A stretch of 16,665 nt of DNA from a bacterium. Its GTDB lineage: Bacteria; Vulcanimicrobiota; Xenobia; RGZZ01. Where the stretch lies: contig JAJXVI010000004.1 in the NCBI GenBank assembly GCA_021782195.1, forward strand, positions 1-16,665. Reading direction: 5' to 3'. A program made the position numbers and the translations under genes. The notes beneath the pieces were generated by a model. That model saw only the letters and a list, made by a program, of their open reading frames with translations, was not told the origin of the DNA and made no database searches. This document shows, piece after piece, positions 7,656 to 16,665 of this stretch; positions within the stretch are counted from its first letter, which is position 1; the number at the start of each line of letters is the position of its first letter.

Positions 7656-8121
7656 TGCATGCCTCCAGTGCTCGCGACAACCGCGTGCACAGGTCTTGAT
7701 GGCGTGGTCCGTGGCCGCTCAAGTGAATCTTCCGCTGCGTCAGCCCGCTGGATTCAAAACGCACTTCCAGTCGGTCTGACGGAAGCGCGGAGACGATCCT
7801 GTCTGCCCACTCGACGACCGCGACACCGTCACCCCAGAAGTATTCCTCGGCGCCGATGTCGTCGAGTTCTTCGATCTGTTCGATCCGGTAGACGTCGAAG
7901 TGGTAGATTGGCAGACGCCCCCTGTAGATGCGCATGAGTACGAACGTCGGACTGGTTGCGTTCTCGGGCGATCCAAGTCCGCGGGCGAGTCCCTGGACGA
8001 ACGTGGTCTTCCCCGCGCCGAGATCGCCATCGAGCGCGAGGACGTCGCCGGCCTGCAGAAACGCCGAAAGGGTACGTGCCAGGGCGGCGGTTTCCGCTGC
8101 CGATGACGTGGTGACGATCAT
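7645..8121 (-). CDS. tsaE: tRNA threonylcarbamoyladenosine biosynthesis ATPase TsaE
   Basis: TsaE is the small ATPase that resets the TsaBD complex during t6A synthesis. The 158-residue protein has the Walker A motif GDLGAGKTT (32-40), TSPTF (56-60), HFDVYR (74-79) and VVEWADR (102-108), all diagnostic of TsaE, at normal family length. The ATG at 8119-8121 shares its A with the TGA stop of the upstream ATPase gene (TGATG), a classic coupling arrangement; a GTG one codon earlier (8122-8124) is an alternative. No strong ribosome site precedes it, consistent with dependence on translation of the upstream gene. Confidence 0.96.
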   Translation of the reverse strand: MIVTTSSAAETAALARTLSAFLQAGDVLALDGDLGAGKTTFVQGLARGLGSPENATSPTFVLMRIYRGRLPIYHFDVYRIEQIEELDDIGAEEYFWGDGVAVVEWADRIVSALPSDRLEVRFESSGLTQRKIHLSGHGPRHQDLCTRLSRALEACNAD

Positions 8122-10505
8122 CACGTGGTGCTGACCTGGATCCTTTTACCGGCAGTCAGGATCTCCAGATCGTTCTGATGGGTTCTGGCGATTGGGAGGT
8201 TGCGTTCGGTGAGGAGTTTGCGCAGTTGCTCGAACGCTTCGGGAGACGATATCGCAACAAAGGTCTGAACTGCCTGGGAAAGCGCCACAATCCAACGCGA
8301 GAGTCTTGAAAACGCCTGCGTGTCGATATCGCGATACGGGTCATCGAGGAAGGCGGGCAGTACGGTGTCGCCGCCGGACCGGGCGCGTTCACCCTCCACG
8401 ATGACGTGGAGCAGGTGGGCGTCGGCGGCGCCCAGTGCCGCGGCCGGTTGCCACACACCGCCTGCTGGGGGGCGCACTTCAGTCTGGATCAGCCATCCGT
8501 CGGTGCGAATACGTACCTGGATCGGGCGTTCCGTGATATGACTCCACACCGACGACACGGCGCGCTCGAGGCGTTGCGCCGATACGGCAGGGGAGCCTCC
8601 GCCGGCATCGCGCGTCGAGCCTTCCAGGGCGGCCAGTTCGGCCTTTACGGGAGCGGCCTTCTGACGCGCCTCCTGCAGTTGGAGGCGATATTCGTCCAGG
8701 CGGTCGGGGGTAGCCTGGAGCGAGGCAGTATCGAGATTGAGCGCGCGCAGTCCGCGTTCACACTCCTCGCGCAGTTGCGTCACCTCGCCGCGGGTACGTC
8801 CGCGCAGCTGGCTGCGAATCTGCTCCTGCAGTTTCTCCATCGCGGCACGGGTAGCGGGGGAGAGCGTCGGTGCCGAGGCGCCTGGCCCTGTTTCGGCCGA
8901 AGGCTTCTGCGACTTTTCCTGGAGCCTCTGCCTCAACGGAAGAAGGCGTTTCTTCAGCTCCTCCTCCTGTTGACGCAGGCTCTGAAACCGCTCGTAGGTT
9001 TCGAGAAACGTGGAGACAGCTCGCCTGGAGACGGTCTCTCCGGCTGCCAGCACGCCGCTTACGAGGAGCGCCTTCGGAGGGGGGCCGGAACTCGAGGCTT
9101 TCTGCTTCGCGAGTTCCAGCTCTTTCTCCAGTTCCTCGCAGTAGTTGCGGGTCGTTTCGAGATCGCGCTCTAGACTTCGAAATTCACGGTATCGGGTACG
9201 CAGCTCCTTGATGGTCCGGGTGCCCGTCTTTTCGAGGAGATCGCCCAGGTCACGCCTGGATGCGTCGATGTTTGACTGAAGGTCGGCGATCTGGGTGGAG
9301 ATGCGCGTCTGTTCCTCGTGCATGTGTCGCAGGTTTTGACGCAACGATTGAAGCCGAACCAGGGTGACTGAAAGAAGTCCCAGCAGAACCGCGGCAGCCA
9401 GCGCGATGCCGGCGGAGATGTGCCAGCCCGCACGGGAAAGCGCAAACACGGCCAGGCCGCTCATCACGAAGATGACCAGAAGGTATCCCGTGAACCGAAG
9501 GAAGCTTGAACGAGCGGCTTCGATTCGCTCCTGCGTGCGGTCGCGCTCGACCACGCGGGCTGTCAGGAAGTCAGACCTTCCCAGGTCGGTTTCGAGCGTG
9601 TTGAGACGGCCGTCAAACCCGTCGTCGTCCTTGTTCGTGAAGAGCGGGGTCATTTCTTGAAGACGGCGCACGATGTCGGCCTCTTTTGTACGGAAGCCTT
9701 CGAGGTTGCGCTGTCGATCGCGGAGCTGCCCCTGTGTCGGCCCTTCATCGATGACGTGCTCGCGGACCTGTGCAACGTCGGCCTCCGTGAGCGCGTAGAG
9801 TGGCTCGAGGGCGGCCAGTTTCTCCGCGAGTTCCCGGCGTTGAGCACTCAGGGTCTCGAATTCCTCGGAGAGTGCGTCAGCCTCGGGTCTGGATGAAGAC
9901 CCGTCGGGGGATGTCGTGGCCTGGGTAGCGGTCTCGGATGAGGCCTGCTTCGTGAGGGTTGCGAGACTGTCTTCGAGCTCCGACGCGCGTTTGAGGCGGG
10001 CGTCGAGATCGAGCAGGAAGGCTTTGCGGAAGTGGGCTTCCCACTTGATGGCTTCTCGTTCGGCCTCTCTTACGCGCCCCCGCGCCTCTTCCAACCGCTG
10101 TGGAGAGACGTCGTTTCCCCGGCCGTCTTCCAGACGGATCGTGCTGACGCCCGGGGCCGGGCCCTGGGCGTCGGTGACGGGCACCTCGCCCTGCTTCCCC
10201 TCGTCGCGCGCACGCACCGACATGTCCTCGAAGTTGCGCTGCAGCGTGATGGTCTGGGGCCCGACCCTGTAGCGGACACGGGCTACGAACGCATCGCCAC
10301 TCTTCGGGCGAGCCTCTGGGTAGCAGGGGCCTTCGCGGGGCGTCGGGGTCGCGGCTGTTCCGGCCAGCACGTCGCGGATGCAGTTGCCAACGGTCGACTT
10401 GCCAGCGCCGCTGGGACCGAACAGCACGTTGACCCCCTGTGATGGCTGGAGAAGGAAGTTCGAGAGTTTTCCGTAGCCCCTGATTGTGAGCTCTTCAATT
10501 TGCAT
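8121..10505 (-). CDS. membrane-anchored SbcC/YhaN-like (SMC-type) ATPase with central coiled coils
   Basis: The 794-residue protein begins MQIEELTIRGYGKLSNFLL, then VNVLFGPSGAGKSTVGN with Walker A at 30-38, as in SbcC, RecF and YhaN proteins. Its C-terminal part has a degenerate signature region (AALGAADAHLL, about 688-698) and Walker B plus D-loop VLPAFLDDPYRDID (715-728). Between lie long charged coiled-coil stretches (about 135-335 and 385-620). At about 338-357 and 362-383 two hydrophobic helices (GYLLVIFVMSGLAVF; AGIALAAAVLLGLLSV) interrupt the coil, as in B. subtilis YhaN. This suggests a hairpin inserted in the membrane, with both ATPase halves in the cytosol. A DNA repair or DNA-end role is inferred from family only. 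The frame extends up to TTG 10631, but alignment favours ATG 10505; its ribosome site is weak. The stop overlaps the tsaE start. No SbcD-like nuclease partner is seen. Confidence 0.8.
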   Translation of the reverse strand: MQIEELTIRGYGKLSNFLLQPSQGVNVLFGPSGAGKSTVGNCIRDVLAGTAATPTPREGPCYPEARPKSGDAFVARVRYRVGPQTITLQRNFEDMSVRARDEGKQGEVPVTDAQGPAPGVSTIRLEDGRGNDVSPQRLEEARGRVREAEREAIKWEAHFRKAFLLDLDARLKRASELEDSLATLTKQASSETATQATTSPDGSSSRPEADALSEEFETLSAQRRELAEKLAALEPLYALTEADVAQVREHVIDEGPTQGQLRDRQRNLEGFRTKEADIVRRLQEMTPLFTNKDDDGFDGRLNTLETDLGRSDFLTARVVERDRTQERIEAARSSFLRFTGYLLVIFVMSGLAVFALSRAGWHISAGIALAAAVLLGLLSVTLVRLQSLRQNLRHMHEEQTRISTQIADLQSNIDASRRDLGDLLEKTGTRTIKELRTRYREFRSLERDLETTRNYCEELEKELELAKQKASSSGPPPKALLVSGVLAAGETVSRRAVSTFLETYERFQSLRQQEEELKKRLLPLRQRLQEKSQKPSAETGPGASAPTLSPATRAAMEKLQEQIRSQLRGRTRGEVTQLREECERGLRALNLDTASLQATPDRLDEYRLQLQEARQKAAPVKAELAALEGSTRDAGGGSPAVSAQRLERAVSSVWSHITERPIQVRIRTDGWLIQTEVRPPAGGVWQPAAALGAADAHLLHVIVEGERARSGGDTVLPAFLDDPYRDIDTQAFSRLSRWIVALSQAVQTFVAISSPEAFEQLRKLLTERNLPIARTHQNDLEILTAGKRIQVSTT

Positions 10506-10823
10506 AGACGCGCGCCGTCGTGCCTTTCTTGACCCTTTCTCCACAGCCGGAAACCGGTCTTCGACGACCGATCCGCACGCGATGAACGTCCCGGGGTCGA
10601 GTGGGAACCTGACCGCGCGGAGGCTTTGCAACGACCCCCTGGTCCTGCACCCGGCCCCGAGTCCGGCACGGTTTGAGCCCGCTCGCTCTTGCGATCAGTT
10701 CCCGCGTGGTCGAGAGCCGGGACGTGCTCGCGCCCGGGGGGCAGGGACGGCCTCCCACGGGGTCTCTTCCGGAATGTTCCACCTGCCGCGCTGCGGCTCC
10801 TTTCAAACGTGACGACTGCGGGG
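10506..10823 (-). other. gap between the helicase and the ATPase gene
   Basis: The stretch of 318 bases holds no recognisable gene. The ATPase frame stays open up to a TTG at 10631, and another arginine/proline-rich frame is open to about 10872, but neither looks like protein. A GC hairpin, GCCGC/GCGGC at 10785-10797, lies 27 bases after the helicase stop and lacks a T run. No clear promoter is visible, although the distance suggests the ATPase operon may start here. Confidence 0.4.
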
Positions 10824-13373
10824 TCATCCGTCTGCGGACGCGGTTGCCGGACAGATTTCGTAGAACGCGCACACCGCGCAGGTGCGCGTCTCCGGTCGTG
10901 CGGGGTAGGCCCGCGCGCGCAGTCCGCGAGCAGCCTCAAGGATGACGTTGCGGGTCTCCTCAAGGTCTCGCATGCTCTTTCGCGCGCGTCCGACCTGTCC
11001 GGATGCGAGAAAGTGCAGTTCGACGCGGCGCGGGAGCCTGCCCTCGCGCTCGTGCCACGCCAGCGCGTAGACGGCAAGCTGGAAGTTTTCCCTGGCCCGT
11101 CTGTCGGCTTCTTCGCGAGACCTCACGTCGGTCGACTTGTAGTCGATGATCGTGGCTTCAGCCTCGCCGTCCGGACCGATCGTAGAGTCGACGCGGTCGA
11201 ATCTTCCCACGACGCGCGTGCGTTCGAGCAGGAACGAGAACTCGTGCTCCACGAGCGACGGTACGTGTGGACTGTCCGCCTCGCGTTTCATCCATTGGGT
11301 GAGCACCTTCTGACCCTGCTCGAACCGCTGCTCCTCGTGCTCGGGTGAGAGAAAGCCTTCGTTCACCCAGGCCCGTGAAAACGTTTCCAGAACTGCGCCC
11401 GGGTCCACCGTCAGGTCACTCTTTCGCGCCTGGTTGTAGCACGAGATGGCCTCATGGAGGGCCCGACCGTACACAACCGTGTGGTTGGTCAGCAGTGGCA
11501 CGCGGAGGATGTGGACGTACTTGTACTTGAGCGGGCAGGTCATGTAGTCGTCGAGTTGTTTGTGTGACAGCGTGAGCAACTGATCGTCGGGGACCGGTGC
11601 CGGAGCCACGGGAACCACCTCGTCAGGCGGAGCGGAACGTTCAATGGCCGACGTCGCCGAGGCGCGCCAGGTGGGGGCGGAGGTCGTGTCGAGCTGAAGG
11701 GCTTCCGCAACGAAGCGACTCGGCTTCGCGCGTCTCCGACCGCCGATGTCGTGAGCACACGAGATGTAGAGGGTTTCCCGTGCCCGTGTCATGGCGACGT
11801 AGAAGAGCCGACGCTCCTCCTGAACCAGAGCGTTGCCGGAAAGGGTGGTCTCGTGAAGGAGTTCGACCGGCAGGGCAAGGCTCTCGCCTCGGTTGCGTGC
11901 GGGAAAGCGTCCTTCCACCGCGCCCACGAGGAACACGACGGGAAATTCGAGCCCTTTTGACTTGTGTACGGTCAAGACGGAGACCGCGTCGCTGTCTGTG
12001 TCAATTTCCGCCACGGCAGGGTTGTCGCCGGCCGCGATGAGCTGATCGAGGTGATTCACCAGGGTGGCAAGAGGCGGACCCGGGACGCGCGTGACGGTCT
12101 GCGAGGGGAGTGCGTCCAGGGCTTCGAACTCGCGGACGATGTCGAAGAATCTCGCAATGTTCTGAAGGCGCGTGTCATCATCGGGGGTGTCGAGTCGGCT
12201 GAGCCTCGAGAGCCAGCCGCTTCCCCGGAGGAACCCGTAGAGCACCTGGCCGGGTGGTTTCCATGCCGCCAGCCTTGCATATCGGCGGAGATCTCCGACG
12301 AGGCGGACGATGGTGGCGCGCGTATCGTCGTCGAGGGTTTTCAGGAGCGCAAGATCCTCCGGTGTGGGTTCGAACGCTCGCCGACGAGGGGCAGCGCCAG
12401 CGGCGACGGCCTCTCCACCGGCCATGGACGCCACCACCTGCATGACCTCGTACAGGCTCCGGTTCCGTCGTTGCGCGAGCGAGCACAGCAGGGCCAGATC
12501 GATGGGAGAGGTCTGGTAGACCTCCGAAGCCGCCAGCGTATACAGCGACGCACCGTCGTGCGGGTCTGTGGTTGCGTGCATGAACGCGATAAGCAGCCGG
12601 ACTTCCGGTCGACTGTAAAGTCCCTGGTTTCCAGTAAAGCGATAGGGGATTGCGTGGACGTTCATGGCACGCAGGTAGGGATCCGCGTAGCGATTGGCTC
12701 GAACCAGGATGGCGTGATCGGCATAGGGTCGACCGGACGCGTGCGACTGCGCGATTCGGTGTGCGACCTGGTCGGCTTCACCGGATTCCGTGTCAAATAC
12801 GTTGAAGATTGGCACGGCATTCGGCTCGTCGCGGCCGGTCAACCGTTTGTCGAGGTTCTGGCGAATTTCGAGACGGTCCGGGTTGTTGACCGTGACCAGT
12901 CGATACGCGGCGTCGAGAAGGGGTTGTGGAGAGCGGAAGTTCTGGGTAAGAACCACAGGGCGCGCGTCTGGATAGATGTCGCAGAACTGAAGGATGTTGG
13001 AGATGGCTGCCCCGCGAAAACGATAGATCGCCTGATCGTCGTCCCCGACGACCGTGATGTTGCGGGTGTGGCCGCTCAGGAGACGCAGGAGCTCGAACTG
13101 TCCGTGGTTGGTATCCTGGAACTCGTCCACGAGGATGTATCGATACCGTCGGCGCAACTGTGCAAGCAACGACGGTCGCGCGCGAAGCAAGGCCAGCAGG
13201 CGATAGACCTGGTCGCCGAAGTCGATGCACCCGTGCTGGCCCATCAAGCGTTCACAGGCAGCATAGGCTTTCGCGAGCTCCGTCTGACGCCTCGCCTCGT
13301 CTGCCACCTCCTCGTCGTTCGGAACCATCGCGGCCTGGGCTGACAGCTCCTCGGCGAACTGGGCGTATCGCAC
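10824..13373 (-). pseudogene. UvrD/PcrA-type helicase with PD-(D/E)XK nuclease: C-terminal part after an in-frame stop
   Basis: This is the downstream part of a gene cut by TGA at 13428-13430; the frame is the same on both sides. Counting from GTG 13952, it carries superfamily 1 motifs II VDEFQDTN (275-282), III GDDDQAIYRFRGA (303-315), IV QNFRS (337-341), V VLTVHKSKGLEFPVVFL and VI EERRLFYVAMTRA, then a C-terminal nuclease domain with GRFDRVD and IIDYKST (D937, K939). One cysteine in TCPLKYKY and three in CAVCAFYEIC (1025, 1028, 1034) match the iron-sulfur staple of AddB/Cas4-like nucleases. Full length would be 1042 residues. Alone it lacks the Walker A ATP site. Open sequence continues back to the stop; the first plausible restart is GTG 13373, with GAGGA ten bases upstream. 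The domain call is firm; whether it is expressed is unknown. Confidence 0.88.
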
Positions 13374-13427
13374 CGGCGAGCAGTCCTCGTCCTTGGCCCG
13401 GCCGATCAGGGCGGTCAGTGCCTCGAG

Positions 13428-13952
13428 TCAGGCGGTCGGGTCTCCCAGCGGGCGATAGATATCGAGGGGAAGTTCGAAAATGTGACGGGTCAGGAGAATG
13501 ATCTGTTGAGGACGCGACAGGACTCGCAGGTCTGTCGTGAGGCCGGCTTCGAGGGCGTGTTCACGCAACAGTTGATAGCCAAAGGAGTGAAAGGTGGAAA
13601 TGTGGAGGTCCGTGTACCCATAAGGGAGCAGCGTGTCAACGCGCTCTTCCATTTCTCGAGCGGCCTTGTCGGTGAAGGTGAGCGCCAGAATCTCGTTCGC
13701 TCGCGCCAGGCGAGAGGCAACCAGCCAGGCGATACGCCGGGTGATGACCGTGGTCTTGCCGGTGCCGGCTCCCGCGACAATCAGCAGAGGACCTGCCGCG
13801 TGTGTCACCGCTGTTCGCTGCGCCTCATTCAGGCCGCGCAGGATGGGTTCAAGCGTACGGGCGGACGTGGGAGGACGGGAAGGGTCCGCAAGTGGCGGAC
13901 CCGGGGTGAAATCGAACTCGTGTTCTGGAGTGTCTGTTGGATGGGCGGTCAC
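13428..13952 (-). pseudogene. UvrD/PcrA-type helicase: N-terminal part ending at an in-frame TGA
   Basis: This holds the start of the same helicase: Q-motif LNEAQRTAV (41-49), Walker A VAGAGTGKTT (59-68), motif Ia LTFTDKAAREME (91-102) and motif Ib HISTFHSF (117-124). It ends at YRPLGDPTA followed by TGA (codon 175). Past the stop the sequence continues as LEALTALIGRAKDEDCSP, which fits the usual family run PLGNPTxxLEALL...AKDE without gap or shift, so a single sense codon seems to have become TGA. The aligned residue is usually large or aromatic; TGG to TGA is one base away. The start is uncertain: GTG 13952 (MTAHPTDTPE) is preferred. The frame stays open to ATG 14180, but that stretch crosses a strong hairpin and is unlike protein. 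Confidence 0.85.
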
Positions 13953-14178
13953 AGGCAGGCGTTCGTTCCCGACCCGGCAGTTCCTCCACGGTCCGTCCCG
14001 GGCGCTCGGACTCGGTGCCCTGTTGGCGGCAGGGTGCGAGGAACCCAGGCGGGGACTATGGAATGAGTCAGCAGGCAAAGCGTGTGGTCTGGCGCCAGGC
14101 GCGTCGGACCCTGGCGCAGAAACGACCGACCGGATGCGGTCGCAACCTGGGTGCGACCGCGTCCGGTCAGGGGTGGCC
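13953..14178. other. divergent region between the helicase and STAS genes with two inverted repeats
   Basis: The region should hold promoters for both directions, but I find no clear -35/-10 pair. It contains GCGCCAG/CTGGCGC at 14092-14098 and 14111-14117 (12-base loop, overlapping the palindrome CTGGCGCCAG at 14089-14098) and the large hairpin at 14128-14168. Open frames across it on both strands show no family resemblance. Confidence 0.5.
14128..14168 (+). promoter_or_regulatory. 17-bp-stem hairpin touching the STAS gene ribosome site
   Basis: The left arm (14128-14144, GACCGGATGCGGTCGCA) pairs with the right arm (14152-14168, TGCGACCGCGTCCGGTC) across the seven-base loop ACCTGGG, with one A/G mismatch in 17 pairs. 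The right arm ends where the ribosome site AGGGG (14169-14173) begins, five bases before ATG 14179. In RNA this would be very stable. It could be a translational control element, an attenuator, a processing site or, as DNA, a protein operator. No T run follows, so simple termination is less likely. Confidence 0.7.
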
Positions 14179-14571
14179 ATGAAATTCGAGATGCATCGTG
14201 ACCAGGAAGTGGCGGGAAACGAACTGGTGGTTCTTCACATCTGCGGAGAGCTTGACATCGACTGTGCCCCGGCCCTGCAGGAGGCGGTTCGACCGCTGCT
14301 TGACCAGGGGTGTCTCCACTTGCTGCTTGAAATTGACGGCCTTCGTCATCTCGATAGTTTCAGCCTGGGAACGTTTCTCGGGCTCCGCCAGCGTCTGCGC
14401 GCATCGAACGGCTCGATGTCGCTTGTATGTCACGTTCCCACCGTCCGTCGCCTGTTTCATATCACCAACCTGGAACGGGTCTTTGAGTTTTACGACTCGG
14501 TGGCGGCCTTTGTGACCGCGAAGGGTGGGCATTTCAACGGGCCGGCAGCCGAGGGGACCGGCGCTTCGTGA
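14179..14571 (+). CDS. STAS-domain protein (anti-sigma factor antagonist type)
   Basis: The 130-residue protein has a single STAS domain: ELVVLHICGELDIDCAPALQEAV (about 15-37, quoted as LHICGELDID), LLLEIDGLRHLDSFSLGTFLG (48-68 region, core LDSFSLG) and a C-terminal helix after HITNLERVFEFYDSV. In SpoIIAA/RsbV proteins, such domains bind an anti-sigma kinase and are switched by phosphorylation of a serine in the DSSG loop. Here the aligned loop reads D59 S60 F61 S62 L63 G64, so the usual phosphoserine position appears to be Phe and the glycine Ser; S60 or S62 might serve instead, or it may not be phosphorylated. No anti-sigma kinase or phosphatase is in the window. ATG is supported by AGGGG five bases upstream; the reading frame extends further up only through the hairpin region. 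Confidence 0.82.
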   Translation: MKFEMHRDQEVAGNELVVLHICGELDIDCAPALQEAVRPLLDQGCLHLLLEIDGLRHLDSFSLGTFLGLRQRLRASNGSMSLVCHVPTVRRLFHITNLERVFEFYDSVAAFVTAKGGHFNGPAAEGTGAS

Positions 14572-16259: not shown

Positions 16260-16665
16260 TTACGACAGATCTGCCGTGGCCTCTTCCCACCGACGGGCAT
16301 CGGTCTCAAGGAACTCCACGTTGGTGTGCACGACCTTGAAACGGTTTCCGGCGACCGACATGAGGTCGATGGAGTCTCGCTCGTTGAATGCGATGTCGAA
16401 ATCCACGTGGAGCCTGGAGAGCGGCCGGAGGTCAGCCTGTGCGGCCAGACGATCGTCAAAACGCTTGATCAGGAGGAACGGGGTGGTCTTCGTCTGAATG
16501 GCGACAAAGTTTCTTCCGAGGGAGCGCACGGTGTATTCCATGGAGGGAGCCGTGACGTGGAACTTCTCGCTTTCCGTGTTCACGATGACAATTCCGCGTT
16601 CCCCGTTCTGAACGGCGTCCACGAGTGCGGTTCCGTCGCGGTTCACGAGCAGTGACCGGATCAGA
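16260..16665 (-). CDS. conserved-looking protein of unknown function, N-terminal side beyond the window
   Basis: The frame is open from the right edge to TAA 16260-16262 (134 residues visible). It reads as a compact beta-rich domain: GIVIVNTESEKFHVTAPSME, VAIQTKTTPFLLIKRFDD, LHVDFDIAFNERDSIDLM, VAGNRFKVVHTNVEFLE. I do not recognise the family. GTG 16646 is a possible start, but sense codons continue upstream (LIRSLL), so the gene probably begins outside. The frame resumes after the TAA as EIAVPAPEPLPP and a Pro/Ala-rich linker, suggesting that the natural protein was this domain plus linker plus helical C-terminus. Confidence 0.55.
   Translation of the reverse strand, partial: LIRSLLVNRDGTALVDAVQNGERGIVIVNTESEKFHVTAPSMEYTVRSLGRNFVAIQTKTTPFLLIKRFDDRLAAQADLRPLSRLHVDFDIAFNERDSIDLMSVAGNRFKVVHTNVEFLETDARRWEEATADLS

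Follow-up and report, generated by a model that had tools for sequence, protein, structure and literature searches.

The window analysed here, a stretch of 16,665 nucleotides, is contig C431 of a draft assembly of 705 contigs that is 61% complete, and it contains a gene for a UvrD-like helicase-nuclease in which a TGA codon interrupts an otherwise open frame. The question raised by this locus is whether the TGA is a genuine stop, a stop that is translated, or an error in the assembled sequence. The reading that we prefer, with a probability of about 0.5, is that the TGA is a consensus error of a draft metagenome contig and that the organism has a sense codon there.

TGA Interruption of the Helicase Frame

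The features of the gene are as follows, in the order in which they are read.

13431-14180, minus strand: frame before the stop, matching UvrD-helicase profile positions 1-120 (Pfam)
13752-13772, minus strand: Walker A, before the stop
13659-13688, minus strand: motif Ia, before the stop
13581-13598, minus strand: motif Ib, before the stop
13428-13430, minus strand: in-frame TGA stop, codon 251 of the 1118-codon frame 10824-14180
10824-13427, minus strand: frame after the stop, with motifs II-VI, UvrD_C and the PDDEXK_1 nuclease; ends in TGA-C
13371-13373, minus strand: in-frame GTG, possible restart, 54 bases past the TGA
11520-11540, minus strand: Cys of the four-cysteine set, after the stop
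10851-10880, minus strand: C-x2-C-x5-C, after the stop

In this assembly the helicase reading frame is broken at codon 251, with 867 codons downstream of the TGA and 268 open codons upstream, or 250 if counted from the putative start at ATG 14180. The UvrD domain starts at residue 117 of the frame, and the Pfam UvrD-helicase profile was matched at positions 1-120 before the TGA and 145-268 after it, followed by UvrD_C and PDDEXK_1. Counted over both pieces, the UvrD N-domain, UvrD_C and PDDEXK_1 were all above the Pfam cut-offs, and in nine aligned relatives the two sides of the TGA site form a single unbroken frame. The homology on either side of the TGA excludes a chance in-frame join. The presence in the assembly of a TGA that interrupts one continuous UvrD-like helicase-nuclease, which the sequence-only reading of this DNA had claimed, is therefore confirmed.

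The same reading placed the stop between motifs Ib and II, and this position was found to be correct, with Walker A and motifs Ia and Ib ahead of the TGA and motifs II-VI past it. It also described intact motifs and a four-cysteine set over more than 860 further codons, and the nuclease motifs, the Cys and the C-x2-C-x5-C do lie downstream of the TGA. The UGA-C context and the in-frame GTG at 13373 are both as it described; the terminal TGA of the same gene is likewise followed by C.

Predicted Function of the Intact Protein

The piece after the stop matches chains of the UvrD, PcrA, Rep and AdnB types. One of these is PDB 6ppu_B (listed as a UvrD/REP helicase of 1095 residues; E 1.1e-37), an AdnB-type motor-nuclease. 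The window's protein shares with AdnB the arrangement of a UvrD motor plus a C-terminal nuclease, but the best matching stretch covers only query residues 47-316, and better scores were obtained with UvrD, PcrA and Rep. Together, the motor, the nuclease, and the Cys and C-x2-C-x5-C suggest an end-processing helicase-nuclease in the style of AdnB or AddB, a function that is inferred from the domains and cysteines. PADLOC returned GajB matches for the helicase, which probably reflect the common UvrD motor. Directly downstream of the helicase-nuclease and on the same strand is an AAA ATPase gene (AAA_23, window 8121-10631, minus strand), the product of which may work with the helicase-nuclease.

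Conservation of the Interrupted Gene

The degree of decay was evaluated against the 77 of 89 candidate loci that gave full-length proteins, the 12 partial ones being left out. It was found that the window retains 80/80 of the positions conserved in 97% or more of the other proteins and 146/147 of those conserved in 90% or more, and that the part downstream of the TGA retains all 69 of its near-invariant positions. Comparable retention was seen in many relatives (for example, 80/80 in locus L009 and 80/81 in L002). A simple simulation of neutral change left every one of the 80 positions intact in 39% of its runs for a divergence of 0.5%, in 16% for 1%, in 2.1% for 2% and in 0.55% for 3%. By this measure a lesion is unlikely to predate about 2% divergence, and the retention of all 80 positions means that a nonsense lesion, if real, is probably young. 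An old, decaying pseudogene is thus ruled out, in agreement with the earlier remark that so intact a gene would be odd for one.

No internal in-frame stop was found in the 89 relatives' loci over the parts covered. Four of these loci had been flagged: two contain frame shifts (L057 and L084), one flag is the natural end of the gene (L026) and one is a match on the opposite strand (L085). A stop seen for L043 in the aligned stretch of the codon survey described below is absent from the 89-locus check, in which the query begins five residues later.

The Codon at the TGA Site in Comparison Loci

The codon corresponding to the TGA was located in 98 of 101 fetched loci, a set that includes distant UvrD-type paralogues, one of them (L022) from the same genome. 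The residue at the site was His in 43 loci, Phe in 28, Tyr in 11, Val in 5, Pro in 3 and Ser in 2, with Trp, Lys, Ala, Glu and Leu in one each and a gap in one. Neither TGA nor Cys was present at the site in any of the 98 loci. A conserved stop is therefore ruled out, and the alignment of homologues at this codon, which had been proposed as a check, gave no conserved TGA.

The relative from another genus of the same family (genome G001) has Trp, encoded by TGG, whereas the nearest relative by identity (G002, 64%) has Tyr, encoded by TAC, two changes from TGA. Of all the codons that specify Trp, Tyr, Phe or His, TGG is the only one from which a single change can yield TGA. Because the TAC of G002 is two changes away, either this lineage had Trp at the site earlier or two bases are wrong, and the TAC argues somewhat against a simple history.

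A Second Stop and the Search for Other Broken Genes

A further interruption, missing from the text of the sequence-only reading, was found 2.8 kb from the TGA site.

16260-16262, minus strand: in-frame TAA, the second stop of this kind, in the neighbouring gene, separating the domain that relatives also have from the C-terminal part

This TAA lies in frame between pieces of 134 and 301 codons. The neighbouring gene was compared in seven of nine loci fetched from relatives. In four of the seven (L125, L126, L127 and L130) both pieces match a single frame, the second with E values of at most 1.2e-8, obtained with composition correction off, so that low-complexity sequence may help them. Of the other three, two extend past the fetched stretch (L124 and L129) and one gave a weak match (L128, E 0.002). 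In G001 the neighbouring gene is near the helicase gene, in the same order and orientation as in the window. The idea that both stops are changes of the C-to-T type was dropped, because the residue at 16260 cannot be securely aligned.

The end of the window was compared with contig C440, which is identical to it over 126 bases within window positions 16537-16665. The window's final 3 bases differ from C440, and the C440 version carries the reading frame of the 134-codon piece onward.

A codon-score scan for comparable stops gave 44 after a first filter, of which 36 were dropped because a rival frame scored equally high on one side. The 8 that were left were the window's TGA site and seven others, and six of these seven were inspected by eye. 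The candidates in L109, L144 and L145 resemble ordinary neighbouring genes that share a frame, and that in L146 resembles a non-coding frame, leaving L103:11172, L136:7639 and L103:2547. With these three as remaining candidates, no clear case of a comparable stop was found in the 37 other contigs or parts. The scan undercounts, in that it overlooks stops that adjoin low-complexity sequence, the TAA at 16260 among them, and the clustering of two stops in one contig is therefore weak evidence. No variant copy of the TGA site was found elsewhere in the assembly, and plasmid records (near mode) gave no match. In a Pfam search, each of ten other frames of the window was assigned to a family, in nine cases above a curated cut-off; these frames were chosen because they are open, and so the matches say little about consensus error.

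Probable Consensus Error or Recent Nonsense Mutation

If the TGA is a consensus error, the true codon would be a sense codon, Trp as in G001 or Tyr as in G002, and the reads would display it at 13428-13430. The gene would then be intact, and its product would be a UvrD-type helicase that carries a nuclease domain of the iron-sulfur type and processes DNA ends. Cooley and Wright (2024, PMC11017572) report that many pseudogenes with internal stops stem from errors of assembly, with an influence of assembler, platform and coverage. The present case resembles those artefacts in having an isolated in-frame stop, a conserved gene and a fragmented draft, with the difference that error is here a probable explanation.

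The main alternative is that a genuine nonsense mutation arose very recently, being either fixed or still segregating in the sampled population, and that it inactivates the protein by truncating it ahead of motif II; we regard this as a substantial possibility that falls short of even odds. The TGA is one transition away from the TGG of G001, the undecayed gene fits a young event at the simulated divergences of 0.5% and 1% better than at 2%, and the genome has a further UvrD-like gene (an 840-codon frame on contig C583), so that the loss might be tolerated. Against this, two separate recent losses would be required to explain a stop in each of two adjacent conserved genes on the same contig, and an internal in-frame stop occurs in none of the 89 relatives' loci in the parts covered. 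The two stops, the mismatch with C440 at the contig end, the fragmented 61% draft and the lack of a clear case in the 37 other contigs or parts make an assembly error slightly more probable than a nonsense mutation that is recent and private. The undecayed gene counts for the consensus error as well; the points against it are the TAC in G002, the lack of a second copy of the site, and the look of the sampled contigs, which are not error-ridden. Both options had been offered from the sequence alone, and both stand, with TGA in 0/98 loci and an undecayed gene. When a single stop turns up in a conserved gene of a draft assembly, it can mimic recoding, and caution is called for where error or a very recent mutation explains it better.

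Unlikely Read-through of the TGA

It is improbable that the stop is read through, whether Trp is inserted by near-cognate decoding or selenocysteine is incorporated, with the full-length enzyme being made. The more specific form of this explanation, in which the TGA is real and is read as Trp at a useful frequency, so that a little helicase-nuclease is made from a leaky UGA-C in a genome where UGA is a stop elsewhere, is less probable still. Should the TGA prove genuine and the enzyme be made at full length, this would be a case of UGA being read in a single gene of a genome that has UGA as its ordinary stop.

The UGA-C context and the Trp in G001 favor read-through, whereas the use of TGA in this genome does not. 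TGA ends 9 of the 12 genes checked in the window, including the helicase gene itself with the same next base. It accounts for 201 of 286 stops after coding-like stretches (TAG, 53; TAA, 32) in a six-frame tally of 38 contigs or parts (272,905 bases including the window) that also counts non-coding frames and the TGA site. An RF2-like gene is present on contig C489 (360.6 bits against a cut-off of 370), truncated by the contig end; with the same RF2 profile, G002 and G003 were above the cut-off and G001 was below it. Genome-wide recoding of UGA, which had been thought unlikely on the ground that TGA is a normal stop elsewhere, is rejected as unlikely in view of these gene ends, the tally of stops and the RF2-like gene.

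A search for suppressor tRNAs had also been proposed, and it revealed none among the genome's own 16 tRNA matches (ARAGORN). This result counts against read-through, though tRNA-Trp is itself absent from the 16 matches, an absence that means little in a genome that is 61% complete. According to PMC13092985, reassignment of UGA to Trp occurs via tRNA-Trp(UCA) or via a tRNA-Trp with a four-pair anticodon stem, the latter being linked to UGA reading. As in the reassignment described there, UGA stands here where another genus of the family has Trp; as differences, an RF2-like gene is present, TGA is an ordinary stop, and the anticodon stem of tRNA-Trp(CCA) has five pairs in both family members, G001 and G002 (in G002 with a G-U end pair).

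The earlier doubt about selenocysteine seems right as far as this site is concerned. A tRNA-Sec was found in the genome (contig C443, locus L212, 1173-1264; anticodon tca; 67.9 bits against a cut-off of 47), together with SelB-like pieces on contigs C256 and C527 that are below the cut-off in frames reaching the contig ends. Adjoining the C256 piece is a SelA-like frame (locus L213, 437-2047), recognised by eye. In G001 and G002, tRNA-Sec and SelB are both above their cut-offs. This genome therefore probably has selenocysteine machinery, a point in favor of read-through, although such machinery does not make any given in-frame UGA a selenocysteine site. Three overlapping stretches around the TGA folded no better than shuffled sequences (z +0.61 to +0.68, in a general folding comparison as opposed to a SECIS-specific search), and Rfam gave no match anywhere in the window. 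Selenocysteine at 13428-13430 is rejected on this site evidence, that is, Cys in 0/98 loci and no fold above background, and not for want of machinery. The folds near the stop and the lack of both Cys and TGA at the site in the comparison loci count against read-through in general.

Unlikely Restart at GTG 13373

The production of two polypeptides, the second by restart at GTG 13373, acting jointly or separately, is likewise improbable. A GAGG is located 11 bases upstream of the GTG (spacing by eye), and the part downstream of the stop keeps its near-invariant positions, as would suit a separate polypeptide. However, the GAGG falls within the codons of a conserved KDED motif, the break would part Walker A from motif II of a single ATPase, and none of the 98 comparison loci has a stop here. 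Read-through and restart had been listed alongside the other options for this TGA, and both are judged unlikely.

Other Observations

Just before a STAS-domain gene, an inverted repeat was recognised by eye; its arms (14128-14144 and 14152-14168) are 17 bases long, with a single mismatch between them. Contigs C431 (16.7 kb) and C583 (13.5 kb) stand amid contigs of about 3 kb although the sampled contigs are otherwise in order of falling length, perhaps as a result of later extension or joining.
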